Virus record (IMG/VR): IMGVR_UViG_3300015192_000006 | Span: 1 to 27,012 of that record | Length of the DNA stretch: 27,012 nt | From: a virus | Direction: 5' to 3' (one strand) | Shown here: positions 3,043 to 24,754 of the stretch, in pieces | Position numbering within the stretch: the stretch's first letter is position 1 | Layout: each line of letters begins with the position of its first letter | Notes under the pieces: generated by a model | Databases searched by the model: none | What the model was told of the DNA's origin: nothing | Seen by the model: only the letters and a program-made list of their open reading frames with translations | Position numbers and translations under genes: made by a program

Positions 3043-4932
3043 TCATGAGTAGTACGCCACAAAGGCATCCGTGCCATTGCTGTATTTCGCTGCTTGGTCG
3101 TAAACGACAGTCGCGGAGTTGTATCGGAAGACGCCGTTTCCTGAGCGCCATTCCAAGAGGGTCACCGGAACACCCCAGACGGTCTCGTCACCATCGAGCA
3201 CCATCTCCTGGTTCCCGATCTCCGTGACAAAGACAGTCCAGATGCGGTTGTCTTTGTCGGTGAACGACACAGGAATGACCGAATCACGCGCAGACTCGAT
3301 GGCCTTCAGTTGGTCGAGCGCGCCCTTGTCGATGTTCGGCAGCGACCCACGAGAGGCTTCGACCATGAAGGTCCATTGCTTCTTGCGCTCGAACCGCAAC
3401 TGGTAGTGACGAGAGAACGGCAGGACACGGGGGGTCTGGGCCGATGAGTCGGTGGTCAGTTTCAGGTGGAGCTGGATGCGCCGACCCTGCGTCGTGGATG
3501 GGAAGTAGATGGAGGACAGACCGGAGGTGGTGACCCGCTTGAGTGGGGTATCCGCTCCACCATCGAGGGCGTAGGACAGGTCCACATAGCGGGCCGTGGT
3601 GACGTTATCGACCTCGAACTTGTAGGACAACTGGGCCTTCGGGGTGTCCTCGAACGTGTCGGCCTCGACCGGCATATACAAGTCGCCGGTCGTGGCGAAC
3701 AGGTAGTTGGAGTCCACATACGGGTTGATGGTGTCCAGCGGCAGGACAAAATACTTCATGGTGGTACCTTCGGAGTACCAGATGCGCGGGTTGCCGCTCA
3801 TATCCTGGAACCGACCGAGGGCGGTGATCGCAGTCGTGCCGGTGAGGGCCAACTGATGCCAGCCCTGACCGGGTGCAGGGTTGTAGTCGTAGGCGGTGAT
3901 GTAGTAGTTGCCTGAGTTCGCGGCGAGGACGCCGTAGAGGAAGTCCACGTCAGCCCACAGGGCTTTGATCTTCCCCCGAACCTCGCTCGATGAACCTTTG
4001 GAAATGGACGGGGCGATGACATCCGCAGAGCGGGTGGGCTTGCCCTCGGTCTGAACGGCGTCGGCGGTGTAGGTCCAAACAGCCGGTCCGACCGGGAGGA
4101 ACAACTTGCCACGGGCAGGCTTGCCACCCTGACAGTTCTGAGCCGACAGGCGCTGGCCCAGTTCCGCAAGGCGGTTGCGGACGGTCGTGCCGTCGTACTC
4201 GAACAGCCCCTCGGGCTTGCCGGTGTGAGGGTTGCCGTTGTAGTCGGTGAGCATCGTCGCAGTCTTGGTCGCATCGCCCAGCGCCACGGCAGTCGTCCAG
4301 GTGGTGCCGTTGGTCGAGGAAGACAACTGGTTGGCGCTGAACACCCGCCACAACTGGTTGCCGATCAGGGCCATGAGTTGGGCCTTGATGCCAGCAGCGG
4401 GCTGGGTCCACACGCCTGAGGTGTCACGGGACCAGTAATCGACCGCACCGCCCGCGCCCACGACAAGGGCCGAGGCGAACACCGTCGCGCAGCCATTGAC
4501 TGCGACGGCAGTAGCGCCCATGTCTTTGTCCACGTCCCAGTTCACGGTGCCTGAGTTCCAGATGTGGACGTAGCGGGCACCGATGGCAAACCACGAGCCG
4601 TTGAACTCGATGGTCTGGTTCTTCGCTTCGGGCGTGGTCATGGTGGTCGTTGACAACTGCGGGCCGAGGATGAGCTGCCCACGAACGCGGGCGTCGATGC
4701 TCTTGGAATAGTGGTAGCGGTCGGCGTCGGAGTTGTCCCGAATCTCCCCCAGCCCGTAGCCCAAGTGCCACGACTTCACCGAGGCGATGAACTCATTAGC
4801 CCGGTCGGCAGGCGAGAGGATGCCCGAACGAATCTGCGAGGCAAGCGCCGGCAGTTCGGCCACCTTGTATTGGATGACCTTGTAGACCGCCGAGTCGAGC
4901 GTGACGGACTCTGTCCGTCCACGGACTGGCAC
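3043..4932 (-). CDS. Large tail protein, possibly tail nozzle (T7 gp12-like)
   Basis: This 629-residue soluble beta-rich protein is full of aromatic and Gly/Thr turns. Repeated short strands with W-T, Y-F and NG turns (for example FNGSWFAIGARYVHIWNSGT and ANQLSSSTNGTTWTTA) suggest a beta-propeller core between about residues 90 and 420. A beta-sandwich follows from about 420 to 560, and the C-terminal 65 residues (VFRYNSATVVYDQ) are again beta. In short-tailed phages a protein of 600-800 residues directly following the adaptor gene is usually the tail nozzle; by position this is the best call, but there is no diagnostic motif. GTG start next to the upstream TAG, with no strong Shine-Dalgarno, so expression may depend on coupling. 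Confidence 0.6.
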   Translation of the reverse strand: MPVRGRTESVTLDSAVYKVIQYKVAELPALASQIRSGILSPADRANEFIASVKSWHLGYGLGEIRDNSDADRYHYSKSIDARVRGQLILGPQLSTTTMTTPEAKNQTIEFNGSWFAIGARYVHIWNSGTVNWDVDKDMGATAVAVNGCATVFASALVVGAGGAVDYWSRDTSGVWTQPAAGIKAQLMALIGNQLWRVFSANQLSSSTNGTTWTTAVALGDATKTATMLTDYNGNPHTGKPEGLFEYDGTTVRNRLAELGQRLSAQNCQGGKPARGKLFLPVGPAVWTYTADAVQTEGKPTRSADVIAPSISKGSSSEVRGKIKALWADVDFLYGVLAANSGNYYITAYDYNPAPGQGWHQLALTGTTAITALGRFQDMSGNPRIWYSEGTTMKYFVLPLDTINPYVDSNYLFATTGDLYMPVEADTFEDTPKAQLSYKFEVDNVTTARYVDLSYALDGGADTPLKRVTTSGLSSIYFPSTTQGRRIQLHLKLTTDSSAQTPRVLPFSRHYQLRFERKKQWTFMVEASRGSLPNIDKGALDQLKAIESARDSVIPVSFTDKDNRIWTVFVTEIGNQEMVLDGDETVWGVPVTLLEWRSGNGVFRYNSATVVYDQAAKYSNGTDAFVAYYS

Positions 4933-5820
4933 CTACGGATATCTCAATGTGTTGTATGCACGGAACTGCGTCCGCTTGAGCGGCTTCTCCGGCATCACCT
5001 GCTGGAGTTGCTTGCGAAGTTTGTCCGCTTCACCGGCCCACTTCTGGACCTCGCCATCAGCATCCTTACGTCCGATGTCGGCGGAACGCGAGGACTCGAT
5101 GCGCCAGAGTTCGGTGATGGCTTGGGCGTAGAACCATTCCTGCTCTGGGCGGTCCAGTTGGACGTAGTCCGTACCAGTGGCGACGGCCTGAAGCGGCGCG
5201 GCGTAGACCACTCGCAGCAGGCGGTTGGTCTGGGGGTTGAAGTTCAGTTGGAGCTTCTTGAGCGTGGCCTGCGCGGTGGTGTCGTAGGTCTCGATGGTGT
5301 CGTACATCTGCGGTGAGAGCACCTGATACGGCCAGTCGGTGTTCGCCGCAAGGGTGAACTTCTGGTACTCCACTCGCAGGATCGAGTCGCCCCCGACGAA
5401 GTCCGGCCCGGTCGGCAGGGCGTAGGTCAGGGTGTCCTGCGTGGCGGTGAAGGTGAACCGACCGTGGTAGTAGAAGTAGGGGTAGGACTTCAGCAGCGCG
5501 GAGTTGGAGGCATTCATGATGTCCTGCGGGCTGAACCGGCGGTACAGCTCGTAGGAATCTCCCGACACGACTGCCGCTGTCGCGGCGCTGTAGAGCGTCA
5601 GTTGGGTGGAAGACGATGTCGATGCCGAGACCTTGCGGACCAGTCCATTGTTCGTCCCTGAAGTGAACTGGACCGAGGCTTCGTTCCAGTAGTTATCGAC
5701 GTAGTTCAGGTTGTTGGCATCCACAACGGTCGTGGTGGAGCCGCCCGTGGCCGTAGACATGACGAACTGAGCCGCACGCTTGGCGATCTCCTGACGGGCG
5801 GTGGCAAAGGTTACGGCCAT
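4933..5820 (-). CDS. Head-tail adaptor-like structural protein
   Basis: This 295-residue protein starts with helix-forming residues (FATARQEIAKRAAQ), has a beta-rich insertion at about 30-95 (NEASVQFTSGTNNGLVRKVSAS, a DNA-surface-type beta fold), and then returns to a helical and beta core with many tyrosines (SYPYFYYHGRF). The segment with YALPTGPDFVGGDSILRVEY and LSPQMYDTIETYD is reminiscent of gp4/gp11-type adaptors that link portal to nozzle in podoviruses, and the long helical C-terminus (205-285) ends in a basic tail. The GGAG ribosome binding site overlaps the stop codon of the upstream glycosyltransferase gene. The assignment rests on position, size and general resemblance. Confidence 0.6.
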   Translation of the reverse strand: MAVTFATARQEIAKRAAQFVMSTATGGSTTTVVDANNLNYVDNYWNEASVQFTSGTNNGLVRKVSASTSSSTQLTLYSAATAAVVSGDSYELYRRFSPQDIMNASNSALLKSYPYFYYHGRFTFTATQDTLTYALPTGPDFVGGDSILRVEYQKFTLAANTDWPYQVLSPQMYDTIETYDTTAQATLKKLQLNFNPQTNRLLRVVYAAPLQAVATGTDYVQLDRPEQEWFYAQAITELWRIESSRSADIGRKDADGEVQKWAGEADKLRKQLQQVMPEKPLKRTQFRAYNTLRYP

Positions 5821-5829
5821 ACGAGTCTC

Positions 5830-6699
5830 CTACATGCTTGCGACGAGGTACTTGCGAGCGACTACGGACCAGTCATAGGACCGCGCGAACAACTGCCCGC
5901 GCTTGGACGTTTCCGCCCAGAGCGTGGGGCTCTCTAGGAGTCGGTCGATGTGCTCTGACCAAAGGCTGTAGTCGATTGGTCTCGGGAGGATGACGGACAC
6001 ATCTGACCACAGTTCGGACAGCGCACCGGAGTCTGAAGCGATGACAGGAGTTCCGGCAGCGAGGGCTTCCAAGACAGCCATGCAGAAGAACTCAGATTCG
6101 CGGACGGGGTCGCAGGGGTGGATGAGAACCTGAGCACTTTGCTGAATGCGGACCAGGTCCGGGCGAGAAATGTCCCGACGGTACGTCGCCAGAAAGTCAT
6201 ACCGCCGCCCGATGCGCTCGGCATGGTGTCCTCCACGATCAGGAGAGGACGTGTAGAGAACACGACGTTCGAGGCGTGGCTGAGGGTCTTTGTAGTCCGA
6301 GATGCGGACTCCCCCACCGATGTGTAGACCGTCCGGTTCTCCACTTAGTTCAGCATGGGTCTTGGAGAGGTAGATGCGTCGGTCGAAGTCTTTGTGTCGG
6401 GGAGGATCACTCCGACAGGAAACAAGAACGACACGCTCCGCGTCGTCCCTGCGGTCGTAGTCATCAAAGCAGAACAGGAGGTCGTATCGCTCGTCGTGAT
6501 GATCCGGGCCGACCCATCGGACTCCGCGATAGGGAGTTTCAGGAGTTTGATAGGGGAGGCGAACCGTAACGTCGTGTCCCTGCGTAGCAAGTTCCGCAGC
6601 CAATTCAGTCGCAAGATGTTCACTCCCTCCAATGGCCGTAGCCCACGGCCAGTTGGGCCAAAAGTTCTCAGTCCAGCCGGTGCTAAATCCGATCTTCAT
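5830..6699 (-). CDS. Compact GT-B (GT4-like) glycosyltransferase
   Basis: This 289-residue protein begins with a Rossmann strand (MKIGFSTGW) and the donor-side loop IGGSE (residues 23-27), as in GT4 enzymes. A YTSSPDRGG motif (149-157) closely matches ASSPDRG in the larger neighbouring fusion, and an E-x7-E motif (E203, E211) followed by AAGTPVIASDSGALSE marks the nucleotide-sugar site. GT4 enzymes move a sugar from a nucleotide donor to an acceptor with retention. It is shorter than usual: only about 50 residues separate SSPDRG from E-x7-E, against about 90 in the fusion, so part of the C-terminal domain is missing. It overlaps the fusion gene by 4 nt (ATGA). Donor and acceptor cannot be read from sequence; a virion protein or the glycan begun by the fusion is inferred. 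Confidence 0.85.
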   Translation of the reverse strand: MKIGFSTGWTENFWPNWPWATAIGGSEHLATELAAELATQGHDVTVRLPYQTPETPYRGVRWVGPDHHDERYDLLFCFDDYDRRDDAERVVLVSCRSDPPRHKDFDRRIYLSKTHAELSGEPDGLHIGGGVRISDYKDPQPRLERRVLYTSSPDRGGHHAERIGRRYDFLATYRRDISRPDLVRIQQSAQVLIHPCDPVRESEFFCMAVLEALAAGTPVIASDSGALSELWSDVSVILPRPIDYSLWSEHIDRLLESPTLWAETSKRGQLFARSYDWSVVARKYLVASM

Positions 6700-9698
6700 G
6701 CCGCGACAACTTCAGCCTCAGTGGCGAGAGTGAGCCAGCCATCCACGACCTTGCCCCAGGTCTGCTGGAGCGCCCAGTCGCGGCGGGTCTTGCGGTACTC
6801 CTCGTGGTCGCTGGACATGAACTGAAGGACATTGGTAAACAACTCATCGAGGTCTTTCGCACCCGGCATCCGCACTACTTCAGGCAATGCGCCCCAGTTC
6901 ACGGTGATAGGAAGGCAGCCGGCGGCTTGGGCCTCGATGGCTGAGATGCAGTAGGTCTCATGGAAGGGTTCACCGTTGGGCATCGTGGATGGGTACAGCC
7001 AGATGTCTGACTTCTGGTACGCCTCGGCCAATGTCTGCTGGTCCACCTTGCCGTGGAGGGTCACTCCGGGCTGCTGGGCCAACTGCTCGACCATCGCGAT
7101 GAACTTCGGGTTGTTGCTCCGTGCGGCGTCAAAGCCGTAGTAGACGTGGAGTGAGGCATCTGCGTACTTCTCACGAATCTTCGGAAACTGCTTGAGCACG
7201 ATGTCCAAGCCCCGATCCGGGGATGAGGCGTAGATGATGCGGTGCTTCTCGCGTCTGACCTTCTTGGCAAAGCGGGCTGGATCGATGCCGTTGCCGCTGA
7301 CGAAGATGTCGGCGGAGGGGTATTGCTCTTGGAGGAAGGTCTTGTGCCACTCACTCAGGGCGAGCACCTTGACCCCCGCCAAGTCCTCAGCGGTCGCCGG
7401 TCCAAAGGTCACGTCATGCGCCCACAGCCAGCGGTGCTGGGCAAACTCCTTCATGTCCTTGAGCGGCGCGGGAGAGCGCCAGGACACGAACAGCCACGTC
7501 GGGCGTGGGACGAACCGCTCGACCGGGGCATAGCGAACGCCGTTCCAGACCCCATCGGCCTCGGCGTAGACCGAGACTCGGAAGCCTTTGGCGTTCAACT
7601 CCTCGGCCACCCTGATGACCGCAGTTTCGGAGCCGCCGATGCCGCCCTTGTTGATGGACTCTGGGGTCCACTCCTGTCCGGTGTTCGGGCACCAGATGAC
7701 CACCGGAGGGGATGTTGGGTCGATGGTCTGATCGGTGACGTACTCACACACAAGGTTCGGCTGGTCGTTCGGATTGGGGTGGGCGACCTTGTGCAGCTCG
7801 ATGAGCTTTCCGCGCTTGGACACCAGTTGGGCGAACTCGCGCTGACTCCAGCCCTGAACGTGCGAGGGGTTCACTTCCTGCGGACCCTCGTAGGAAAAGT
7901 CCGGGGTGGACAAGATGATGCGCGTGGACAGGGTCTCCATCTGGTCGAGGAACGCCTGCGGGTCAAGGACGTGCTCGATGATCTCCGCCCCGACGACCGC
8001 GTCGAACGGCCCGAGGTCACGGACCTTCTGAGTGATGCCCTCGGCGGGGCACCAGTGGAACTGGACCTTTGAGTCCGACTCCAGCACCGGCACTTTCATG
8101 CCGACTTCCTTGTTGTGCTTGGCCTTGATGAGACCGGCCTTGACCGCGTTCCAGTTGGCATCCTTGACCCGCGAGGCATCTACGTCGATTCCCACGACCT
8201 GAATGCCGTTGAGGGCGTAGTAGAACGAGGACACCGCGTTGCCGATGCCCACATCTAGGACTTTCTTCACGCCGGCGGCCTTCAGGCGCGAGAGCACCCA
8301 CGCCATTCGGGGATACCAGACTGGGACATTCTCGATGCCTTCCAGCGGGTCGATGGTCTCGCGCTGTTCGTAATACAGGTTGCGGTAGGCGACCGGGTCG
8401 TACAGATGCTTGATGGACTGATGGACCTTGTGCTCCGCCGCGACGACCACACCGCCGTTGTCGGCAGCGCCAGCCGGGAGGGCCTCAAGCACCTTCTTGG
8501 CCTTGAGCGGTTCGTTGGTCTTGACCAGATGAGCGGCAAGCGCAAGGCCGTAGTTGATGGCCTTCTTGCGGTTGATCGCCGCCCGAAGGTGATTGACCTT
8601 CGTGACGATTTCCGGCTCAGGCCGGACCCCCGCCGCCTGCTCCAGACACGAGAGGGCCTTGTCCTCCTGCTTGAGGTTGTAGTAGCAGACCGACAGCCAG
8701 AGCAACGGGCGGAAGGTGTAGGACAGGCTGTTGACGAACACCGTGGGGTCGGCGGTCTTGCCCTCGGAGACCAGGCGCATCCCAATCTCCCCGAACTGCA
8801 ACGCCTTCTGCCACTCCCCCACGCGGGTATAGGTGTCCCCGAGGTCGAAGTAGGAGTCGGGCCAGTCAGGGCGCAGGGTCATTGCGTGAGTTAGAGCCTT
8901 GATGGACTCTGGGTACATCCCCAGCGCCCGACAGGCGGTGGCGAGCTGGATAAGGGCTTGCCACTTCTCCTCCGGCCAGTTGGAGAGGCCGATGTACTTG
9001 TTGTACGAGTCGATGGCCTGCGCCCAGTTGTGAGCGGCGAAGTGCTGGTTGGCAAGGTAGTAGTGGAAGCGCGGAGCGTCGGGCTCCTTCTCCAGGGCCT
9101 TGTAGATGATGCGGAAGTTGCGGGTGTTGTCCCGCCCTTCCTCCGAAGCATCGTGGACCCAGAGGAAGTCGTCGCAGATGACCATTTCATGCATCAGGTC
9201 ACCGGGGTGGATGTCCTCGTGGACCGGGTCTTTCCAGTACCAGCGCATCGGCTTGCCCTGGAACTGGGTCCGGCAGAACCGCAAACGGCGGATCGTCGTC
9301 ATCGGGTTGCCGAACTCGTCCTGGGCGTAGTTGTAGTCCGAGAACAGGCCGTAGACCTGCGGCGGGACTTCCTTCAGGACTTCCTCAAGGGTCTTGCCGC
9401 TGACCATCTCCAGCGCATCATCGGTGTCGATCCAGTAGAACCAGTCGATGCCTTCGGGGATGTGCTCAAGGGTCAGGTTACGGGCTGCCCCGAAGTCGTC
9501 GTTGAACTCGAACGGGAACAGCGTGACGCGCTCACCCAGACGCTCGCGGAACCACGCCTCGGTCTGTGGAAGAGACTTGCTGTCTATTCCAAGGACGTAG
9601 TCGGTGGTCCCGGCCTTCTCGCAGGACTCCAGCATCCGGGTGAGGTGCTTGAAGTCTTTGTCTTTGTTGTAAACAATCGCGGTAGCGGCGATCCTCAT
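6696..9698 (-). CDS. Multidomain GT2-TPR-methyltransferase-GT4 glycan enzyme
   Basis: This 1000-residue protein has four parts in order. Residues 1-185 form a GT2-type (GT-A) glycosyltransferase, with an N-terminal TAIVYNKDKD strand, the FNDDFGAARN block (65-74) and a metal-binding DTDD (91-94). Residues about 190-400 are TPR-like helical repeats (for example ALIQLATACRALGMYPESIK and DSYFDLGDTYTRVGEWQKAL). Residues about 455-650 are a class I SAM methyltransferase with VLDVGIGN (480-487), IDVD (504-507) and VVGAEIIEHVLDP. Residues about 665-985 are a GT4-like GT-B enzyme with GGIGGSE (685-691), SSPDRG (825-830) and E-x7-E (E914, E922). Start: the ATG 4 nt after the upstream stop; the longer in-frame extension is rejected because it overlaps that gene. 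GT2-TPR proteins are known to glycosylate peptides (SunS), so protein glycosylation with a methylated sugar is a reasonable inference. Confidence 0.9.
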   Translation of the reverse strand: MRIAATAIVYNKDKDFKHLTRMLESCEKAGTTDYVLGIDSKSLPQTEAWFRERLGERVTLFPFEFNDDFGAARNLTLEHIPEGIDWFYWIDTDDALEMVSGKTLEEVLKEVPPQVYGLFSDYNYAQDEFGNPMTTIRRLRFCRTQFQGKPMRWYWKDPVHEDIHPGDLMHEMVICDDFLWVHDASEEGRDNTRNFRIIYKALEKEPDAPRFHYYLANQHFAAHNWAQAIDSYNKYIGLSNWPEEKWQALIQLATACRALGMYPESIKALTHAMTLRPDWPDSYFDLGDTYTRVGEWQKALQFGEIGMRLVSEGKTADPTVFVNSLSYTFRPLLWLSVCYYNLKQEDKALSCLEQAAGVRPEPEIVTKVNHLRAAINRKKAINYGLALAAHLVKTNEPLKAKKVLEALPAGAADNGGVVVAAEHKVHQSIKHLYDPVAYRNLYYEQRETIDPLEGIENVPVWYPRMAWVLSRLKAAGVKKVLDVGIGNAVSSFYYALNGIQVVGIDVDASRVKDANWNAVKAGLIKAKHNKEVGMKVPVLESDSKVQFHWCPAEGITQKVRDLGPFDAVVGAEIIEHVLDPQAFLDQMETLSTRIILSTPDFSYEGPQEVNPSHVQGWSQREFAQLVSKRGKLIELHKVAHPNPNDQPNLVCEYVTDQTIDPTSPPVVIWCPNTGQEWTPESINKGGIGGSETAVIRVAEELNAKGFRVSVYAEADGVWNGVRYAPVERFVPRPTWLFVSWRSPAPLKDMKEFAQHRWLWAHDVTFGPATAEDLAGVKVLALSEWHKTFLQEQYPSADIFVSGNGIDPARFAKKVRREKHRIIYASSPDRGLDIVLKQFPKIREKYADASLHVYYGFDAARSNNPKFIAMVEQLAQQPGVTLHGKVDQQTLAEAYQKSDIWLYPSTMPNGEPFHETYCISAIEAQAAGCLPITVNWGALPEVVRMPGAKDLDELFTNVLQFMSSDHEEYRKTRRDWALQQTWGKVVDGWLTLATEAEVVAA

Positions 9699-9702
9699 GC
9701 TT

Positions 9703-10218
9703 CTATTCGGTCGGCGGGAGTGGGCCGACGCCCATCTTGTGGACCGGGGAGATATACATGCCATCGGCAAGTGCTCGGTCGATCTCGTCCCGCGTCGGAG
9801 GGCGGAACTGGGAGTTCATGCGCTTGTCGGTCTCAAGGTGCTCCATGAGCACCGTGTAGTGGGGTTCAGGGATGCGGGCGGGCTGGCCGGCGATGAGCTG
9901 GTACTGGACTCCGTTCACCGTGACCGGGATGGTCACCGGGGAGATGACATCGACCATCTTGTGGGTCGTTTCGTAGTCGGCGCGGGTGAATGAGGTCTTG
10001 TCCTCACGAACGGTGCCGGGATATCTGACTGTTCCCGGAGGGACTTTGTCAGGAGCGGGCTCGGACGGAAGGTCGGCCAACTCGGAGAGCAGCTCCTGAC
10101 GGCGGGCGCGGATGGTGTCCTCGCTGACTGTGGTCGGCTTCTCGCGCTCGATGACCATTGCGGCTGCGCGCTTGGCGGCTTTGACTTCGCGGGCTTTGGC
10201 GAGTGATTCGGCTGACAC
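9703..10218 (-). CDS. Capsid-adjacent structural or accessory protein
   Basis: This 171-residue protein has a Lys/Ala/Glu-rich helical N-terminus (1-55), a Pro/Gly-rich linker (55-70) and a C-terminal part with the segment VTVNGVQYQLIAGQPARIPE (about 99-118) followed by HYTVLMEHLETDKR. Small phage structural proteins beside capsid genes often carry such a VNG-x-Y...G-x-P-x-x-x-P-E pattern, and it may be a minor head or connector protein. GTG start with an AAAGGAAA ribosome binding site. It sits downstream of the major capsid gene across the large inverted repeat and ends 4 nt before the glycosyltransferase fusion. Function not established. Confidence 0.75.
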   Translation of the reverse strand: MSAESLAKAREVKAAKRAAAMVIEREKPTTVSEDTIRARRQELLSELADLPSEPAPDKVPPGTVRYPGTVREDKTSFTRADYETTHKMVDVISPVTIPVTVNGVQYQLIAGQPARIPEPHYTVLMEHLETDKRMNSQFRPPTRDEIDRALADGMYISPVHKMGVGPLPPTE

Positions 10219-10365: not shown

Positions 10366-11331
10366 TTAGATGCTGGACCGACTCTCATACCTTACGATTC
10401 TGTTCTGATCGAGAATGACTGCGACGAATGCAGCCTTCCAGCCGAGACTCCAAATCTGATCGAGTGGGTCGTTGATACCGCTCGAACCACGGGGCTTGAA
10501 GTAGGTCCGCGCGGTGTCCGAGGAAAGCTCGATGACCGCGTAGGCTTCCTTGCCGACGAACAGCGTCGAGTAGACCTGTCCACCAGACTGGCCGAGGGAG
10601 CCGTTGATCGTGGCGTTGGTGGTCTCGTAGAACCGGATACCGAGCAGGTCGCCGAGTGCGCCGGTGCTCAGGGGGTTCTCAGCGGTCCCACCGCCCTGCT
10701 CTCCACCTGTGCGGGTGAAGGCGTACTGGAACGAGTTGGTCACGTTGCTGTCCGAGAACAGGTCACGGACGACATCGGGGTGGACGATGGCAACGTACTT
10801 GCCGTCGTCAAGCGGGAGCACGTCCTGGTTCTTCAGGAGCCGGCGAGCGTTCCGAAGCTCGGCCCACGACATGTTGAACCCTGACGCAAGGCCAGAGCGA
10901 ACGGTCGCGGTACTCGCGTAAGCCACTGTCGTTCCAGCGTTGATGACGTTGCGGGTGATCTGGTCGAGAGTGTCCTGAAGATTCTCGCCGAACACCTGCG
11001 TGAACTCCGTCACGACCGGGTCGATAGCCTGCCATTCGAGCAGATCGGAGCCAAGCATATAAGCTCCGTACTGAGCAATCGTGGCAGTGATCGAAGTGAC
11101 GGTGGGGTTGAGCGCGGTCGGCGGAGTACCTTCGGTGAGTGCCGTGGTCTGCGCCGATGGACGAGTGAAGCGGCGGAAGGAGATGATGTTACCGGAGGCT
11201 CCCGCGATGCTCTTCTGAACTCCAAAATTCCGATGGACGAAATTCGGGATGGTTCGCGAGAGGAGCACCTTATCGTAAAATGTGCGGGTCTCCAGGGTCA
11301 TCCCAGCAACGCCGAGCTGCTGGACTGCCAT
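10366..11331 (-). CDS. Major capsid protein, N4-gp56 family
   Basis: This 321-residue protein has the pattern of the N4-gp56 type of HK97-fold capsid proteins. It shows an N-terminal TFYDKVLLSRTIPNFVHRNFG segment, then ISFRRFTR, LTEGTPPTALNPTVTSITAT (the E-loop to spine region), AQYGAYMLGSDLLEW, and a long helix GENLQDTLDQITRNVINAG. The central helical part ends in YVAIVHPDVVRDLFSD, followed by GxRFYETTNA and the C-terminal DPLDQIWSLGWKAAFVAVIL. These are features I associate with that family. It forms the icosahedral shell. ATG start with a GGAAAAA ribosome binding site, 15 nt after the scaffold-like gene. A large hairpin follows its stop, which may help raise its expression above neighbouring genes. 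Confidence 0.88.
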   Translation of the reverse strand: MAVQQLGVAGMTLETRTFYDKVLLSRTIPNFVHRNFGVQKSIAGASGNIISFRRFTRPSAQTTALTEGTPPTALNPTVTSITATIAQYGAYMLGSDLLEWQAIDPVVTEFTQVFGENLQDTLDQITRNVINAGTTVAYASTATVRSGLASGFNMSWAELRNARRLLKNQDVLPLDDGKYVAIVHPDVVRDLFSDSNVTNSFQYAFTRTGGEQGGGTAENPLSTGALGDLLGIRFYETTNATINGSLGQSGGQVYSTLFVGKEAYAVIELSSDTARTYFKPRGSSGINDPLDQIWSLGWKAAFVAVILDQNRIVRYESRSSI

Positions 11332-15992: not shown

Positions 15993-18656
15993 CTACTGAG
16001 CGTTGTATTCAAACTTCGGTGGGCGATGCTGTCCCGACTGCTCGGGATGCGGGGAGGCGTTCTCGACCATCTGCTCGTAGTCCTTCGGCTCCACGCCGTA
16101 GGCGGAGAGGTAGGACTTGAACGCTTCCAGTTCGCTCGGATTGAGCTGCTGGTAGGCGATCTTGCTCAGGAGCGGGACGCCACGCGGGAGGTTGGACTGC
16201 TGTGGGACGTTCGTGCCGTTGGCGGCGTTGCCACGGTACTGGTCGAACATCCGCTGGAGGAACGGAGGAAGTTTCCCGCGAGCGAGCAGGTCCTGGAGCG
16301 GGTTCTGTCCCGGAACACCGGCGGCGTTCTGGTGATTGTTGTCGTAGACGTTCTTCCCGCCCTGACCTTCGTTGATGCCTTTCGTGAAGTCGTTGTACTC
16401 CGGTGAGGTTTCGGAGAACGATGGGTTGATGTTCGGATTGGCAATAGGAGCGGACTGCCTTCCCCCTCCCCCGGTAAGGAAACTGGGGATCGGGGCTTGG
16501 AATGAGGGACTGCGAATTTCCAAGGGGGCATCCACCGGGTCTCCACCACGGGTGGGTGCAGTCTGCGCGGGTGCGGGCTGCTGCGCGGGGGCGAGCGACG
16601 GGGGCGGGGTGCCTGCGGGCGGCGGGAGCGGGCCGGGAGGAGTGTTGTTCGATGGGCTTGGCGGCGGAGGGGGCGGAGTGTAGGTCGGCGTAGCGGGTGC
16701 TGCGGCCCTGTTGAAGGCGTTCGTCGCGGCGATGGGGTTGTACGAGTTTGGCGACATGGATGCGGGGGGTTGCGCCCCTCCCGGCATGGCATAGGGAGCC
16801 GATGGTGCGCCTGCTGTGGGCATCGCGCCAGCCGGATCGGATGGAAGCGGTGCGGGGTACGAGTTTGGAGAGATGGAGGCCGGCGGCTGTGGCCCACCCG
16901 GCATGGCGTATGGAGCCGATGGCGCACCGGCGGATGGCGTCGCACCAGCGGGATCAGATGCCGGGGTCGGCTCGGGCGGGTTCACATACGAGGGGTCGTC
17001 ATCCGGATTTTTGATCGCTTTACCAGAGAAGCTGATGGTCTCCGGCCCCGCTTCCCCGGCAAGCGCGGTCGGGTGACCCGTCAGCGCATCGACAAGGAAG
17101 TGCGGCGTGGTGATGGTCAGGCTACCGGGCTTGGCGAACTGCCTCGTGGGGTCCGGTTGCGGAGAGATGACACCCTTCGCCGCGAGATTGTCGAAGAACG
17201 ACTTGGTGTCTGATGTAAGACCCCCCGGCGGCAGACCCGTCGTTGGGTAGGCGCTCGGGTTCTGGTTGGCACGCTGGGCATTCACCTGTGCGGTGGCCTG
17301 CTCTGGGGTGCCGATCATGCCCTTGAGGTCATACCCTTGAAGCGTTGGCAGCGGGCCAAGACGCGGCTGAGCGGAGGCAATCGGGCCAGCGGCAGGACCG
17401 CCGGGACCAGCGCCAGCGCCGCCAGCCGAGCCACCCATGCCGCCACCGTTCATCCCGGTCACCCCATCAAACTGCTTGAGGAAGCCCGGAAGGTATGACG
17501 TAAATGGTCCTGCGGTTGCGGACTGCGACTGATTGGTGTTGGCGTAGTTCGCAGAGTCCGGGGGCGGGGCATCGCCGCGATGGTTGTAGAAGTTCTGCAT
17601 GAAGTTACGCGGGTCGGATGAGATGTCTTGAGCGTTCTTGTAGGCATCGAAGCCTAGACGCGATTGGGATTCGGTGAAGGACATATTGTGCGAACGGGCC
17701 AGCTCAGAGGATGAGATGTCGAACTGGCGCTTGGCCTCTGCGGAGTCGCCCTGCTTGAGCGCAAGTTGTCCAGCCTGATAAGCAGCGTCCGACCTGTTCT
17801 TGGCTTCCTCGCTTGCGGCGCGGCGGTTCTCAATAGCAATCTGCGACGGGTCGGCAATGCTCTGGCTGCGGCGAACGGCATTGGGGTCATTCTGCCGACC
17901 CAAACGCGCAGACTCTGCATTCCGATACGCCTCGTCCGACGCCTCTTTGCCACCAACAGCCTTCTGAAAAGTAGCAAAGTCTGGGTACCCTTTAGCAATC
18001 CACGGTGGGGTCTTCCCGTAATATGACCAGTATTCATTGGTGGTCGGGTCGTTCGGAGCCCCGCCAGTTCCACCGCCAGTTCCACCGCCAGTTCCACCGC
18101 CAACAGTCGTTGAAGATGTCCCAGTGCCGTAGTCGCCGCCAGCATTCGGGTCCGTGGTGTATTCGCCATCCGTTGGGTCATTCGGATCGGTACGCGGAGT
18201 GCCCCGGTTCGGGTTGAGTACGGACATAAGCTTGCCTCCGCCACCGCCGGTTCCCTGTTGGGCGTTCCCGAGGATGGTGCTGACGTAGTTGCTGTTCTCG
18301 CCGTAGCCGCCCCAGTTGGGGTTGGCGTAGTTGCCGTTGAGGACGTTCCCTAGACCGCCGTTGTAGGCGGCGAGGGCTTTGCCGTAGTCGCCACCGACGT
18401 TGTCGAGCATCGCCTTGAGGTACTGCGCCCCAAAGCGCAGGGAGTCAGCGGCGTCACTGGAGTCCACCGGCTGGACGCCATAACCCGGATCGGCAGCGGT
18501 GGTGGGCATGATCTGGGCGATGCCGTTTGCGCCACTTCCGGCGTTGTAGGCAGAGGGGTTGAAGCCGCTCTCCTGATTGATGAGGGCTTCGTAGACGTTG
18601 GGGTCTACACCGTTTGCAATCGCTGCCATGCGAGCCGCACGCCGCCAATCAGCCAT
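15993..18656 (-). CDS. Virion lytic transglycosylase with long disordered region
   Basis: This 887-residue protein starts with a complete SLT-type lytic transglycosylase domain (about 1-125): catalytic Glu29 in INQESGFNPSAY, GIAQIMP (45-51) and AYNGGLGNV (97-105). Such domains cleave peptidoglycan and in podoviruses let the ejected proteins cross the cell wall. Beyond it the sequence is mostly disordered: Gly/Thr-rich repeats (about 185-198), a helical stretch (240-350) and a very Pro/Ala/Gly-rich part (about 390-770) containing a 39-residue tandem duplication. The C-terminal 90 residues look folded (LLARGKLPPFLQRMFDQYRG). It follows the 97-residue gene with a TAATG overlap and precedes the 1245-residue ejection-like gene, so the pair likely works together at DNA entry. 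Confidence 0.85.
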   Translation of the reverse strand: MADWRRAARMAAIANGVDPNVYEALINQESGFNPSAYNAGSGANGIAQIMPTTAADPGYGVQPVDSSDAADSLRFGAQYLKAMLDNVGGDYGKALAAYNGGLGNVLNGNYANPNWGGYGENSNYVSTILGNAQQGTGGGGGKLMSVLNPNRGTPRTDPNDPTDGEYTTDPNAGGDYGTGTSSTTVGGGTGGGTGGGTGGAPNDPTTNEYWSYYGKTPPWIAKGYPDFATFQKAVGGKEASDEAYRNAESARLGRQNDPNAVRRSQSIADPSQIAIENRRAASEEAKNRSDAAYQAGQLALKQGDSAEAKRQFDISSSELARSHNMSFTESQSRLGFDAYKNAQDISSDPRNFMQNFYNHRGDAPPPDSANYANTNQSQSATAGPFTSYLPGFLKQFDGVTGMNGGGMGGSAGGAGAGPGGPAAGPIASAQPRLGPLPTLQGYDLKGMIGTPEQATAQVNAQRANQNPSAYPTTGLPPGGLTSDTKSFFDNLAAKGVISPQPDPTRQFAKPGSLTITTPHFLVDALTGHPTALAGEAGPETISFSGKAIKNPDDDPSYVNPPEPTPASDPAGATPSAGAPSAPYAMPGGPQPPASISPNSYPAPLPSDPAGAMPTAGAPSAPYAMPGGAQPPASMSPNSYNPIAATNAFNRAAAPATPTYTPPPPPPSPSNNTPPGPLPPPAGTPPPSLAPAQQPAPAQTAPTRGGDPVDAPLEIRSPSFQAPIPSFLTGGGGRQSAPIANPNINPSFSETSPEYNDFTKGINEGQGGKNVYDNNHQNAAGVPGQNPLQDLLARGKLPPFLQRMFDQYRGNAANGTNVPQQSNLPRGVPLLSKIAYQQLNPSELEAFKSYLSAYGVEPKDYEQMVENASPHPEQSGQHRPPKFEYNAQ
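16741..16957. repeat. Tandem 117-nt repeat inside transglycosylase gene
   Basis: Two direct copies begin at 16741 and 16858 (TACGAGTTTGG) and run about 100 nt each with few differences. They encode two 39-residue Pro/Ala-rich units (DPAGAxPxAGAPSAPYAMPGG...PNSY). The in-frame period indicates expansion of a flexible linker by recent duplication. Confidence 0.85.
18061..18102. repeat. 12-nt microrepeat (3.5 copies) coding Gly/Thr linker
   Basis: The unit CCGCCAGTTCCA is repeated perfectly three times plus a partial copy. On the minus strand it encodes GGTG-type repeats in the linker just after the transglycosylase domain. Slippage here would change linker length in steps of four residues without shifting the frame. 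Confidence 0.9.
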
Positions 18657-18949: not shown

Positions 18950-20830
18950 CTAGCGCCGACCGCCCTGTGCAGCCCCGACCCCCGGAGCGGAGGGGAGAGC
19001 CCCGCCCGGAGGTGTGGGCATGTTGGGAATGCCAGCCATTGAGCCAGACGGCGCCCCAGCGGGCGCCCCAGCGGGCGCGGCGCCGGCTTGTCCGACCTGC
19101 GGACCGCCAGCAAGCCCGATTTCGCCAGAAGCCCTCACACCAGGAACCCCGACTGGGCCGGTGGTGTAGGACGGGAAGCCGAATGCCTTGAGGGTATCTG
19201 CGATCATCTGTTGCTGGGCCTGCGGACTCTTGACCACGTCCTCGATGAACCGCTCGCGGAGGATTTCCTCGGCGTTCTCGCGGCCAGCGTAGGTTTCAAG
19301 GAAGTCCCGACCGGAGATGATGCCTTCCTGGAACAGCTTCTGGCCGTTGGAGATGTTCACGGCGGTGTCCTGCGGGAGGTCCGGGACCAAACTGACGTAG
19401 ACCTCGTAGGCCCCGTTGATGTCCTTCGGCTTGAGGGTGATGAACTCGTTGCCACCCATCCCCTTGCCCCAGACCGACACCGGCTCCTCGACCACATTCT
19501 CAACCAGCTTGAAGAAGCCGGAGGTGGCCCACTCGGCGACGTGCTCAAGCGCGTCGGAGAGCGGGCGGAGGCGGGCGCGGCCAGTACCGACAAGGATGGA
19601 TTCGTGGTAACCGGAATACACGCCCTTCGGACGCATCCCACCGAGGGTGTCGGGGAGCGTGGCGCTCTCGATGCGGCTCTTGACCAGCTCGACAAACTGC
19701 AAGAGTTCGGAGATCGGGACCACCGGACGCAGTTCAAGGACCGCATCCTTGAGCGCGGTGCCTGCGGGGACGCGGGTGACCCCACCGAGGCTCATGTTCA
19801 ACTGCACGCCCTGCGCTGCGAGGAGCCAGGGGAACGCCTGCTGAGCGATGACCGCCTGGGTATGGGTGAGCGAGCGCATCTCCGCGCCGAGCAAGTCCTT
19901 GATCGGAGTCAACAGACCCTGATAGCGGTACTCAGGAAGCCCAGTGGGCATCCCGTAGCCGGCAGAGGTGAAGTAGTAGGGCATGAACCCAAACCCATGC
20001 GGGGCCACACCGTCATACGCCTTGATGAGCGGCGTCCCGGAGGCTGTTTCTGGGTTGGTTGACGCGGCCATCGAGCCGATGATGTAGGCGTGATAGGTCT
20101 TGTCCCAGTACGAGATGAAGTCCACATAGTCGGTGAGCTTGTAGACCGTGTTTGTACCGGGCTTCTTCATGTCCCAGTTCGGCCAGCGGCGCTTGACCTC
20201 ATGGGCCATCCGGTTGAAGGCGATGATGATGAACTCTTTGCCCTCGGTCGCGGGGTCGGGGTAGACGTTGAGTGGGTCTACCCAATCCAACTCGAAGGGC
20301 CACGAGGATTTGCGGGAGGCGACGGCCTCTTCGTAGTTCTCTTCCTCTGACTCGGAGGCTCCATCACCCGGCTTCGATGGGAGTTCGGGCCACTTCTCCT
20401 TGTTGTAGAACAACGAAGCGCAGATGGCACCCCGCAATCCGCCGATCTGCGCCCATGCACGGAGCGGATTGAGCGGAGCCTCGGCGATGCAGCGGTACCA
20501 AAAGCCCTGACCGGCCTTTTCCATGAGTGTGGTGGCCTCTTGGGCCTTCTCGGTCTCCCGACGACGCGGAACATGCAAGCGCGGGAAGTTTCCAGAGGCA
20601 TGCTCGGCGGCGGTGTCGATAATTGTCTTGCCGGTGGGCAGCCGCACTTGGTCAAACAGGTCCGGAGTGTCGGTCTGACCGACTGCGATCTTGATACCGC
20701 CGGTAATACCACTGCCAGCGTTGTAAAAGGCTTCGTCCTCACGCTGCTGGTCGTGCCACTGCCGGTAAAATGCGTCCAATTCCCAGCGCAGGGCGATAAT
20801 CTCTCGGACGGTCGGCTTCTTTGGCTTCAT
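18950..20830 (-). CDS. Portal protein
   Basis: This 626-residue protein follows terminase with a 4-nt ATGA overlap, the standard order. It begins with a helical REIIALRWELDAFYRQWHDQQREDEAFYN segment typical of portal N-termini, then a mixed core with DWVDPLNVYPDP (wing to clip region), a long helix through TPIKDLLGAEMRSLTHTQAVIAQQA and a helical C-terminal half. Size fits podoviral portals. The last about 60 residues are a Gly/Ala/Pro-rich collagen-like tail (GAPAGAPAGAPSG), unusual for a portal and perhaps disordered inside the head. The portal forms the dodecameric channel through which the terminase pumps DNA and onto which adaptor and tail attach. Confidence 0.85.
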   Translation of the reverse strand: MKPKKPTVREIIALRWELDAFYRQWHDQQREDEAFYNAGSGITGGIKIAVGQTDTPDLFDQVRLPTGKTIIDTAAEHASGNFPRLHVPRRRETEKAQEATTLMEKAGQGFWYRCIAEAPLNPLRAWAQIGGLRGAICASLFYNKEKWPELPSKPGDGASESEEENYEEAVASRKSSWPFELDWVDPLNVYPDPATEGKEFIIIAFNRMAHEVKRRWPNWDMKKPGTNTVYKLTDYVDFISYWDKTYHAYIIGSMAASTNPETASGTPLIKAYDGVAPHGFGFMPYYFTSAGYGMPTGLPEYRYQGLLTPIKDLLGAEMRSLTHTQAVIAQQAFPWLLAAQGVQLNMSLGGVTRVPAGTALKDAVLELRPVVPISELLQFVELVKSRIESATLPDTLGGMRPKGVYSGYHESILVGTGRARLRPLSDALEHVAEWATSGFFKLVENVVEEPVSVWGKGMGGNEFITLKPKDINGAYEVYVSLVPDLPQDTAVNISNGQKLFQEGIISGRDFLETYAGRENAEEILRERFIEDVVKSPQAQQQMIADTLKAFGFPSYTTGPVGVPGVRASGEIGLAGGPQVGQAGAAPAGAPAGAPSGSMAGIPNMPTPPGGALPSAPGVGAAQGGRR

Positions 20831-22083
20831 GCTGACCGCCTCAAGTAGTTATTAGCTGACGAGCGACCCCGTGAGAGGTAGTTGTCGTCGCCCGCGACTG
20901 GGTTGGACCAAATCGGTGTCCCCCGCTGACCCCAGAGCGCAAGGGCGAGCGCCACCACGGCGTCGTCGTGCTGCCCATCTGGTGCGGAGTAGTAATACCG
21001 TCCGGTCTTGTCGTTCTGGGTGATCTCGTAGGCCGCAAGCTCGTTGATGAGTACGGGTTCGTCGGGAATGGTGATGGTCCCGTTCTCAAATGCGACTCGC
21101 AGGTTGTCGATGAGCACCTGCTTAGACTCGTTGGTGAAGATGTAGCCCTCAGCCTGCACGCCCGACTCGCGGACCTGCTGGATGAACACATCACCCACAC
21201 CCGTCGCGTCCATCACCACCCGTGAGCCGAGACCGAAGGCGGTGGCAACGATCTTCTGCTTCTGAACCGCCCAGTCGTTCTGGTAGCGGTCAAAGGAGGT
21301 GACTTGGCGCTTGGAGTTCATCGCGATCTGAACGGTGAAGTCCAGCTTTCGCGCAAGGTCCACGCCCAGACACATGAAGCGGTCGGCCAGCCCGTAGCCG
21401 CCGATGCAGTTTCTGAAATTGCGAAATGCAGAAAGGGCGTTGTCGAGGGGATTGGCCTCGTACTCCTGCATGAAGGTCTCACCGGGAGTGGTGCGGCGCA
21501 TCTCCTCGATGTATTCGCGGGAGACATAGGGCGACTCGGCGGAGGCCCAGTGGAACGAAGCCCAGTCCGGCTCGTTGTTCTTCCCCCGGAGCCAGAGATG
21601 GTAAAACCAGTTCTTCCCGCGAGGGGTGCCGATGAACAACGCCCAGGCATTGGGTCGGGCGGTGAGCATCGGCCCGATGCCACGAATCCAGACGTTCTCC
21701 TTCCACTGGCCGGCTTCGTCACAGACGACACCGTCGAGTGATTCGGAGACCAACGCCTCCTCGGCGTCGGCAGACTTGACCCAGATGATCGAGTTGTTCC
21801 CAAGCGCGACCCGCGACTCGGTCTCGTTCTTCTTGCCGATGACCTGCTTGGGAAGGAAGTCAAGAATGCCCCGCCATGCACGGTCCTTGACTTTGTAGGA
21901 TGGCGCGACCCACCAGAGGATGGCCCCCGGATGGGACATGGCAAAGTTGCAGATTTCCGCGATGCCGGTCATGGTCTTACCGGACTGGCGTCCAGCCATG
22001 ACGACGCGGAATCTGGCCTTTGAGGTATGGACACGGGCCTGGGCTTTCCAGGGCGTGTAGACGACCGGAACGTCGGTGGTCAC
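20827..22083 (-). CDS. terL: Terminase large subunit (packaging ATPase-nuclease)
   Basis: This 418-residue protein is a typical compact large terminase. Walker A is AGRQSGKT (30-37). Walker B is LDGVVCDEA (116-124) with D122 and E123. The coupling motif GTPRG is at 152-156. The C-terminal RNase H-like nuclease has acidic residues D242 in GVDLARKLDFT, D292 in VVMDATGVGD and the pair D373-D374 in HDDAVVALA. It cuts concatemeric DNA and drives it into the procapsid through the portal encoded next. GTG start in a TAGTG overlap with the upstream Lys/Ala-rich gene. No small terminase is recognised; the three small upstream genes are candidates. Confidence 0.95.
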   Translation of the reverse strand: MTTDVPVVYTPWKAQARVHTSKARFRVVMAGRQSGKTMTGIAEICNFAMSHPGAILWWVAPSYKVKDRAWRGILDFLPKQVIGKKNETESRVALGNNSIIWVKSADAEEALVSESLDGVVCDEAGQWKENVWIRGIGPMLTARPNAWALFIGTPRGKNWFYHLWLRGKNNEPDWASFHWASAESPYVSREYIEEMRRTTPGETFMQEYEANPLDNALSAFRNFRNCIGGYGLADRFMCLGVDLARKLDFTVQIAMNSKRQVTSFDRYQNDWAVQKQKIVATAFGLGSRVVMDATGVGDVFIQQVRESGVQAEGYIFTNESKQVLIDNLRVAFENGTITIPDEPVLINELAAYEITQNDKTGRYYYSAPDGQHDDAVVALALALWGQRGTPIWSNPVAGDDNYLSRGRSSANNYLRRSA

Positions 22084-23071: not shown

Positions 23072-24754
23072 CTAGTCAAGGAACTCGTAGATGATTCCCT
23101 TGACCTTGATCGCCAGCCGACCGCCGACGAGGATGAGGTTCGCGCCTGCCGCGACGGCTGCGGGGGCGAGGGTGTTTTGCAGCAGGTTCTGAATCCACGT
23201 TCGCTGGCCGATGGGCCGAACGGGAGGCTGCGGCACGGGCCAGTCGAGGTTCGCTGGCGGCTGGCCGGCGAGACCGAAGAACATGTCCTGCCCGATGAGG
23301 TTCGTCTTGAGCGGGTCGATGTGGGTCTTGAGACTGGGATTGGGTGTCTTGCCGAGCGTGACCGGCCAGTCCAGAAGATTGAACGGGAAGATGGTGATGA
23401 CCTGAGCGAGCGTGTTGCTCAGGAGGTTGACGAGCCACGTTCGCTGCATGATGGGTCGGGTTGGAACCTGCGGATTGGGCCAGTCGGCATTGGGTGGCGG
23501 CTGACCCGCCGCGCCGAAGAATGTGTCCAGACCGAGGAACTTGATGGTCGTCCATATCCAGGTCTTTTGACCAATGGGTGGAACGACCCCCCGTGGGTTA
23601 GGCCAGTCCAGGTTCGCAGGCGGTTGCCCTGCGGCGCCAAAGAACTGATCCTGCCCCGCCAGCACGTTGGTCAGCTTGTCCTGCCGCCATGTCCTGACCC
23701 CGGCCTCCCAGAACTTTGTCATGGGGTTGGGCCAACTGAGTTGGGCGAACGGGTTGGCCGCAACGATGACGTTGAGCAGGGTCTGGAGCGGGTTCCAGAT
23801 ATGACTCTTGAGGGTGATGTTCGGGACGTAGCCCCTCGGATTGGGATAGTCGTAGTCCGGGGCCATGCCCGGAGCCCCGAAGAACGTGTCTTTTCCGATC
23901 AGACCCAGGGTGTAGGAGTTCGTCCAGGTCTTGAGGGTGATGTTTGGTACGTAGCCTCTGGGGTTGGGCCAGTCGTAGGTCTTGGTCTGCCCGACCACAC
24001 CGAACTGCTTGTCCTTGAGCAGCCAGAACTCGGAGGCATCGACATCGGCCTCGCGCATCCCCCGCCACAGGCGCTTGACCGGCATCTTGGAGTCGAGAGT
24101 GGACTGACCGGGAGGGAGGGTGGCGGAACCGGCGGCGACAGAGCGGAGCACGAACATGAACGCGGTCGCACCACCGGCCTGGATGTTGGACTGGGTTGCG
24201 GTCCCGACCGCACCAGGACCGACGAACGCCTTATCGTTGACGCAGACCTCGCCGGTCGTGCCACCGAAGCTGGTGACTCGGCGGGTGTAGCCAGTCGGTG
24301 CAGCGGACCACGTGTTCCCGGTCTCGTTGCTGTGGATGATGACTGAGGTGGTGTCTGCTGTGAGTGTCGTGTTGTCGTTGGTCGCCAGACCAGCCGACGA
24401 TGCATTGGTGACGATCGCGGCGAGCGGGTCGGGGTCATACGGGTTGCCGGTCGTGGGCACGCCGGAGTAGGCAAGGACGACACCCTCGCGCCAGACCGAG
24501 GCGAAGGTCCAGACCCAAGACGCGCCCTCGGATGCGGCCCGCTTCCAGTAGATGTAGCAGGCGTTCGCGGCGACAGGCTTGCCCGAAGCGAGAAGGGTCC
24601 AGCCGGTCGGGGCGGTCGGATCGACGTTGTCGTCCTTGCCGATGACCGCGATGAGGATGTCGTTATCGACGGTGCCGGTGGGCTTGGTTAGCGTGAGGTT
24701 CGCGGCGGCGCTGCCCGCTACGTTGGTCGATGCACGATACGCGGGCGAGGCCAT
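23072..24754 (-). CDS. Virion protein with seven WPNP/FFG repeats
   Basis: This 560-residue protein has an N-terminal beta-sandwich-like domain (about 1-210: DNDILIAVIGKDDNVDPTAPTGWTLLAS), of a kind found in many phage tail or receptor-binding appendages. It continues with a linker and seven repeats (about 250-530). Each has a D-W-P-N-P core (W/Y at 262, 303, 341, 384, 425, 463, 505), then a Pro-rich strand and KTW or RTW, and before the core either a D-x-FFG-xxGQPPAN block or an NPFAQLS-type block. A last strand-rich segment (GGRLAIKVKGIIYEFLD) ends it. Intervals of 41, 38, 43, 41, 38, 42 residues show a higher-order period of three units. Probably an extended tail fibre or surface protein; the function of the repeat is unknown to me. 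Confidence 0.75.
   Translation of the reverse strand: MASPAYRASTNVAGSAAANLTLTKPTGTVDNDILIAVIGKDDNVDPTAPTGWTLLASGKPVAANACYIYWKRAASEGASWVWTFASVWREGVVLAYSGVPTTGNPYDPDPLAAIVTNASSAGLATNDNTTLTADTTSVIIHSNETGNTWSAAPTGYTRRVTSFGGTTGEVCVNDKAFVGPGAVGTATQSNIQAGGATAFMFVLRSVAAGSATLPPGQSTLDSKMPVKRLWRGMREADVDASEFWLLKDKQFGVVGQTKTYDWPNPRGYVPNITLKTWTNSYTLGLIGKDTFFGAPGMAPDYDYPNPRGYVPNITLKSHIWNPLQTLLNVIVAANPFAQLSWPNPMTKFWEAGVRTWRQDKLTNVLAGQDQFFGAAGQPPANLDWPNPRGVVPPIGQKTWIWTTIKFLGLDTFFGAAGQPPPNADWPNPQVPTRPIMQRTWLVNLLSNTLAQVITIFPFNLLDWPVTLGKTPNPSLKTHIDPLKTNLIGQDMFFGLAGQPPANLDWPVPQPPVRPIGQRTWIQNLLQNTLAPAAVAAGANLILVGGRLAIKVKGIIYEFLD
23230..24010. repeat. Coding repeat array for WPNP/FFG units
   Basis: Seven diverged units of about 40 codons (period about 115-129 nt), grouped by threes into a roughly 122-codon super-period. 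The best-conserved DNA stretch encodes GQPPANLDWPNP. Units differ in sequence, so the array is old rather than a fresh duplication. Confidence 0.8.

Follow-up and report, generated by a model that had tools for sequence, protein, structure and literature searches.

The presence of glycosyltransferase genes in the middle of a phage morphogenesis operon raises the question of whether their products act on the virion itself, on the host surface or on phage DNA, or whether the genes are cargo without a role in the virion. We investigated such a cassette in the 27,012-base virus record IMGVR_UViG_3300015192_000006, analyzed over its whole length and here called the window. Because it is a fragment, further cassette genes may be located outside it. 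It contains a single virion module, encoded entirely on the minus strand:

20827..22083, minus strand: terminase large subunit (TerL), marker of the head module (phrog_2, 1.6e-39)
20830-18950, minus strand: probable portal, by position
18656-15993, minus strand: transglycosylase-bearing internal protein
15982-12245, minus strand: internal virion protein
12078-11347, minus strand: scaffold-like protein
10366..11331, minus strand: major capsid protein, MCP (phrog_1357, 9e-49; 34-41% to relatives)
9703..10218, minus strand: 171-aa gene between MCP and cassette, possibly virion-associated (27% over 82 aa to the gene at the same place in the relative L030)
6696..9698, minus strand: 1000-aa multidomain enzyme, GT2 + TPR + methyltransferase + GT4 (Pfam, PHROGs, NCBIfam SunS as a remote relative, AlphaFold model)
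5830..6699, minus strand: second, compact GT4 glycosyltransferase of 289 aa (Pfam, fold match)
4933..5820, minus strand: putative head-tail adaptor of 295 aa (position and sub-threshold matches)
3043..4932, minus strand: putative stabilization or tail protein, by position only and without family match

A sequence-only reading of this locus had described two glycosyltransferase genes overlapping by 4 nt, on the same strand as the structural genes and with translation coupled to theirs. This layout was confirmed. The 1000-aa gene starts with an ATG at 9698 and shares 4 nt (ATGA) with the 289-aa gene. The end of the 171-aa gene lies 4 nt before the ATG of the large gene, and 9 nt separate the end of the 289-aa gene from the 295-aa gene, whose ATG is preceded by an AGGAG motif. 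Between 4800 and 12200 no promoter-like sites were detected, and the count of terminator-like sites was not above that of shuffles. An Rfam search gave no match. The position of the cassette means co-expression with virion genes and does not identify the substrate. The pair had also been placed between a capsid-adjacent gene and a head-tail adaptor gene. The order is correct, but the adaptor is putative: like the 171-aa gene it is assigned largely by position, with weak sub-threshold matches to BR0599 (9e-4), phrog_778 (2e-3) and TIGR02218 (3e-4). BLAST showed no similarity to the SU10-type adaptor that L021 has in the corresponding position, and tblastn of the 171-aa and 629-aa genes against GenBank phages found no relative.

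No mucin-like tract strongly rich in Ser/Thr was found in the proteins neighboring the cassette. The window MCP carries a 12-aa Gly/Thr-rich insertion, TRTGGEQGGGTAE, at residues ~208-220, which is absent from 19 aligned relatives; as a candidate target signature this loop was set aside, since the cassette-bearing L030 does not have it. The SLT transglycosylase virion protein (15993-18656, minus strand) contains a GGGTGGGTGG linker and a 117-bp tandem repeat at 16740-16960 within a Pro/Ala/Ser-rich stretch. In a 560-aa protein without family match (23072-24754, minus strand), the pattern DWPNPRGxVPNI..KTW...GxDTFFGAxGQPP recurs about five times in degenerate form.

We determined the domain content of the large enzyme. 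Pfam matches to TPR_2 (1.6e-15), Glycos_transf_1 (8e-13) and Methyltransf_23 (2.7e-6) were far above chance, and residues 1-390 matched a phage beta-1,4-glycosyltransferase family of PHROGs (7.8e-34). Four domains follow one another:

9129..9698, minus strand: GT2 (GT-A) domain, residues ~1-190, with the W-I-D-T-D-D motif
8469..9116, minus strand: TPR superhelix, residues ~195-410, proposed to recognize the protein substrate (Pfam; helical in the model)
7809..8291, minus strand: class I methyltransferase domain, residues ~470-630, VLDVGIG ... VVGIDVD (Pfam)
6699..7712, minus strand: GT4 (GT-B) domain, residues ~663-1000, with GGSE and E-x7-E

The description as two glycosyltransferases therefore holds for the presence of such domains in both proteins, but it had left out the TPR array and the methyltransferase. 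The catalytic D-x-D is present as WIDTDD at residues 89-94; DxDD and E-x7-E are both intact, and the C-terminal domain shows the GT-B fold and the E-x7-E of the GT4 family. A reading as a defence system was discarded, PADLOC having given only an overlap of the methyltransferase region with mad2. The 289-aa protein (Glycos_transf_1, 2.6e-11) also carries GGSE and E-x7-E; it falls short of the fused GT4 by about 50 aa, most of them missing from the C-terminal domain. Its model is of moderate confidence (pLDDT 64.5), with PimA/MshA of the GT4 fold as best matches. One of the two GT4s could be weak or structural, given the change of the second Glu of E-x7-E to Lys in many relatives and the reduced length of the 289-aa protein.

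The N-terminal half resembles enzymes that modify proteins. Residues 3-238 match SunS in NCBIfam (TIGR04195, 2.9e-6), where 26.4 bits against a cut-off of 350 make the enzyme a remote relative and not a member. Other sequence matches include GmaR, a weak similarity (E 0.007), and OGT TPR. An AlphaFold model built on a shallow alignment is confident over the GT2-TPR part (pLDDT mostly 80-93), whereas the methyltransferase region is poor and unreliable. Its closest structural match was SunS 7msp (Z 22.0, rmsd 2.7, 270 residues aligned in VIA-align), which was also rank 1 in Foldseek; GT4 enzymes and ThuS came next. Structure prediction, earlier proposed as a check on both enzymes, thus gave a SunS-like GT2-TPR fold, i.e. 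a GT-A domain followed by helices as in SunS and SgtA, and a GT4-like fold for the 289-aa protein. Sequence and model together suggest a GT2-TPR half of the protein-acceptor type, like SunS, SgtA and GmaR, in likeness of working rather than family membership. SgtA of C. difficile consists of a GT-A domain (1-260) and four TPRs and transfers beta-O-GlcNAc onto Thr of BclA3, a collagen-like protein and known O-glycosylation substrate whose gene adjoins sgtA (PMC7157674). In FlmG the flagellin substrate is bound by the TPR part (PMC7591256).

These similarities also bear on the possibility of DNA hypermodification, in which the glycosyltransferases would act on modified bases of the phage genome. 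Phage glycosyltransferases can glucosylate DNA, according to passages of PMC12619734 that cite earlier work, and a methyltransferase is present here. We nevertheless consider this extremely improbable: the best homologues act on peptides, the linkage is to head genes, and family searches of the window, itself a fragment, found no base-modifying partner gene.

We assessed whether the cassette recurs in other phages. Relatives were gathered by IMG/VR scans with alignments of the large enzyme, from GenBank phages and by an MCP scan. IMG/VR scans with the large glycosyltransferase alone or the MCP alone returned nothing, exact peptide seeds being too strict, whereas pairwise alignments used as queries did recover relatives. 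The counted set comprises 44 proteins of at least 450 aa including the window's (38 clusters at 90% identity); about 33 GT2-only proteins (L141-L173) and a shorter set, weak matches to the N-terminal half, were left out. Flanking genes were labelled by phmmer against known virion proteins, those of L019 by PHROGs. In 41 of the 44 cases the gene lies in the head module: 18 are located behind the MCP, mostly with a single gene in between, and 23 in the TerL-portal interval or immediately after TerL; a downstream portal or near-identical copies served to place two of the 23. Three (L140, L175 and L188) have no recognizable virion gene nearby. The sequence-only reading had named missing linkage to the structural module in relatives and degraded active sites as results that would speak against it. 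The finding withstood both checks, and the DxDD motif is kept in 41/44 relatives. A tblastn search with the 289-aa GT4 against GenBank phages found no relative.

At least three groups of MCP stand beside the cassettes: phrog_1357 (window and L030), the ctKR88/ctf1B273 type and phrog_1005 (L019). L030, the closest IMG/VR relative found for the MCP, has the order MCP, 171-like gene, GT2/TPR/MTase with 26% identity. In L021 the MCP is followed by a small gene, the glycosyltransferase, a radical SAM gene, the SU10 adaptor and a stabilization gene. The methyltransferase domain is also fused in L030 and L136 and is a separate gene in L022-L029.

Further genes were noticed within the cassettes. Radical SAM/SPASM enzymes in the slot behind the MCP in L004 and L021 hint at further protein or sugar chemistry, and phyH and NodB-like genes are also present in this slot of L004. 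In the TerL-portal interval of L022-L029 and L115-L121 a Cpn60/GroEL-like chaperonin gene (PF00118, 5e-49; e.g. L024:11645-13207) separates the gene that ends in the N-terminal half of the GT4 from the gene for the C-terminal half, the latter being followed by the methyltransferase and the portal gene. With the motifs used, the sole genome matched in an 84,980-species collection was that of the bacterium Fictibacillus gelatini (L110), a seed-limited result serving as illustration and not as a census. At L110:7839-13753 a GT2-TPR gene with strong SunS and GmaR similarity and a GT4 gene adjoin an 840-aa GATGPTG collagen-like protein of the exosporium type.

We then analyzed the distribution of the two slots on a maximum-likelihood tree of the GT2-TPR part (40 rows). 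Although identity among the proteins is only ~25%, a single change separates the slots, as compared to a shuffle mean of 13 with 0 of 500 shuffles as low. This contrast is inflated by near-identical rows, and the rows of the tree are not independent. A well-supported branch (98/94) sets the TerL-portal set apart from the remainder. The window itself is a long branch whose exact place is unsure. With only one slot change, the position behind the MCP has been kept over very long branches, the window's included. A rival reading takes the genes as cargo, acquired or in decay, that occupies a hotspot downstream of the MCP gene and has no role in the virion. The varying slot contents among relatives and the shortened second GT4 would be consistent with it. 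In view of the intact motifs and reading frames, the recurrence in dozens of phages and the single slot change, we regard this as very unlikely.

What occupies the slot when glycosyltransferases are absent was examined in relatives of the MCP. In many of these (L048, L068 and others) no gene stands between the adaptor and the small gene that follows the MCP. Others contain BppU_N, Mtd_N, fn3, collagen, beta-helix or choline-binding domain proteins, which look like fibres or adhesins, suggesting that the slot serves decoration of the virion surface. A different explanation is that the enzymes alter polysaccharide or protein of the host surface late in infection, for receptor masking or superinfection exclusion, the late operon providing only the timing. 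The GT4 domains indeed resemble LPS/EPS glycosyltransferases, and phage glycosyltransferase clusters are often interpreted in this way (PMC7824862). However, the cassette has no recognizable gene for a membrane protein, a flippase or an undecaprenyl-phosphate transferase, and the likeness of the GT2-TPR part is to peptide glycosyltransferases that are soluble. Moreover, the slot has been retained while the proteins diverged strongly, and in relatives fibre-like genes occupy it too. We therefore judge action on the host surface to be unlikely.

Modification of the virion, as first proposed from the sequence with defence evasion or binding of host glycans as possible purposes, remains the best-supported reading because of the protein-acceptor type of the enzyme, the head linkage across different MCPs and the kept catalytic motifs. 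In our estimation the cassette quite probably encodes a unit for protein glycosylation that the phage produces along with its capsid. Most likely it glycosylates, and possibly methylates, a protein of the virion surface. As to acceptor, sugars, order of steps and methylation target, we infer the following course. While still in the host cytoplasm, ahead of head assembly or in its course, a virion protein would probably be recognized by the TPR array and receive its first sugar, on Ser, Thr or Cys, from the GT2-TPR half. The fused GT4 domain and the separate GT4 enzyme may then extend this with further sugars, and the methyltransferase domain may methylate the glycan (or the protein), giving a capsid or tail surface decorated with glycans.

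The wider proposal, which we hold to be evenly balanced, is that of a widespread, old and unnamed virion-glycosylation system of environmental podovirus-like phages, in which a SunS-like GT2-TPR-(MTase)-GT4 enzyme in the head operon decorates the capsid and replaces fibre-like slot genes, with a chaperonin between the GT4 halves in one clade. Should this hold, genetically encoded and possibly methylated glycans from a second, unrelated enzyme lineage would be common on the particles of phages other than actinobacteriophages. This would have consequences for adhesion to surfaces and for evasion of recognition, and it would provide a new set of protein glycosyltransferases, with the natural acceptor likely encoded next door.

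Among known systems, the peptide S-glycosyltransferases SunS/ThuS and the pair SgtA-BclA3 share with the window enzyme a GT-A domain followed by a helical or TPR region. They act on peptide acceptors, but are not virion enzymes and have no methyltransferase or GT4 fusion. The flagellin O-glycosyltransferases FlmG and GmaR likewise combine a TPR part with a glycosyltransferase part and modify a self-assembling surface protein in the cytoplasm; in FlmG the TPRs are joined to a GT-B domain in reversed order. Cassettes of glycosyltransferase, methyltransferase and radical SAM genes occur in GenBank records of uncultivated Manatee Spring phages, in the same post-MCP slot in ctKR88 and ctQWt234 and in the TerL-portal interval in ctf1B273. 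These records are annotated gene by gene, and our literature search found no publication recognizing the cassette. For the mycobacteriophages Che8, Corndog and Myrna, glycosylation of capsid and tail tube was reported by Freeman et al. 2023 (10.1016/j.chom.2023.05.028), as related in passages of PMC12363180, PMC12619734 and PMC11600133; passages of PMC11600133 and PMC12363180 count cluster O among the groups concerned. Firecracker, a cluster O relative of Corndog, has the order portal, O-methyltransferase, hypothetical gene, two glycosyltransferases, capsid protease, MCP. A glycosyltransferase/methyltransferase cassette inside a head operon is thus not new, and the assumption of a usual location elsewhere for these enzymes does not hold generally. 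Like the actinobacteriophage type, the window encodes its own glycosyltransferases (GT2, GT4, GT4) and a methyltransferase (Methyltransf_23). Firecracker, a Mycobacterium siphovirus, differs in its separate small glycosyltransferases, the absence of a TPR fusion, the slot and the Pfam families. Its gp33-36 showed no significant similarity to the window proteins and, among the cassette relatives, only a marginal match of gp35 to L188 (0.022). The window cassette is a sequence-unrelated variant of the known virion-glycosylation cassettes, found in podovirus-like phages.
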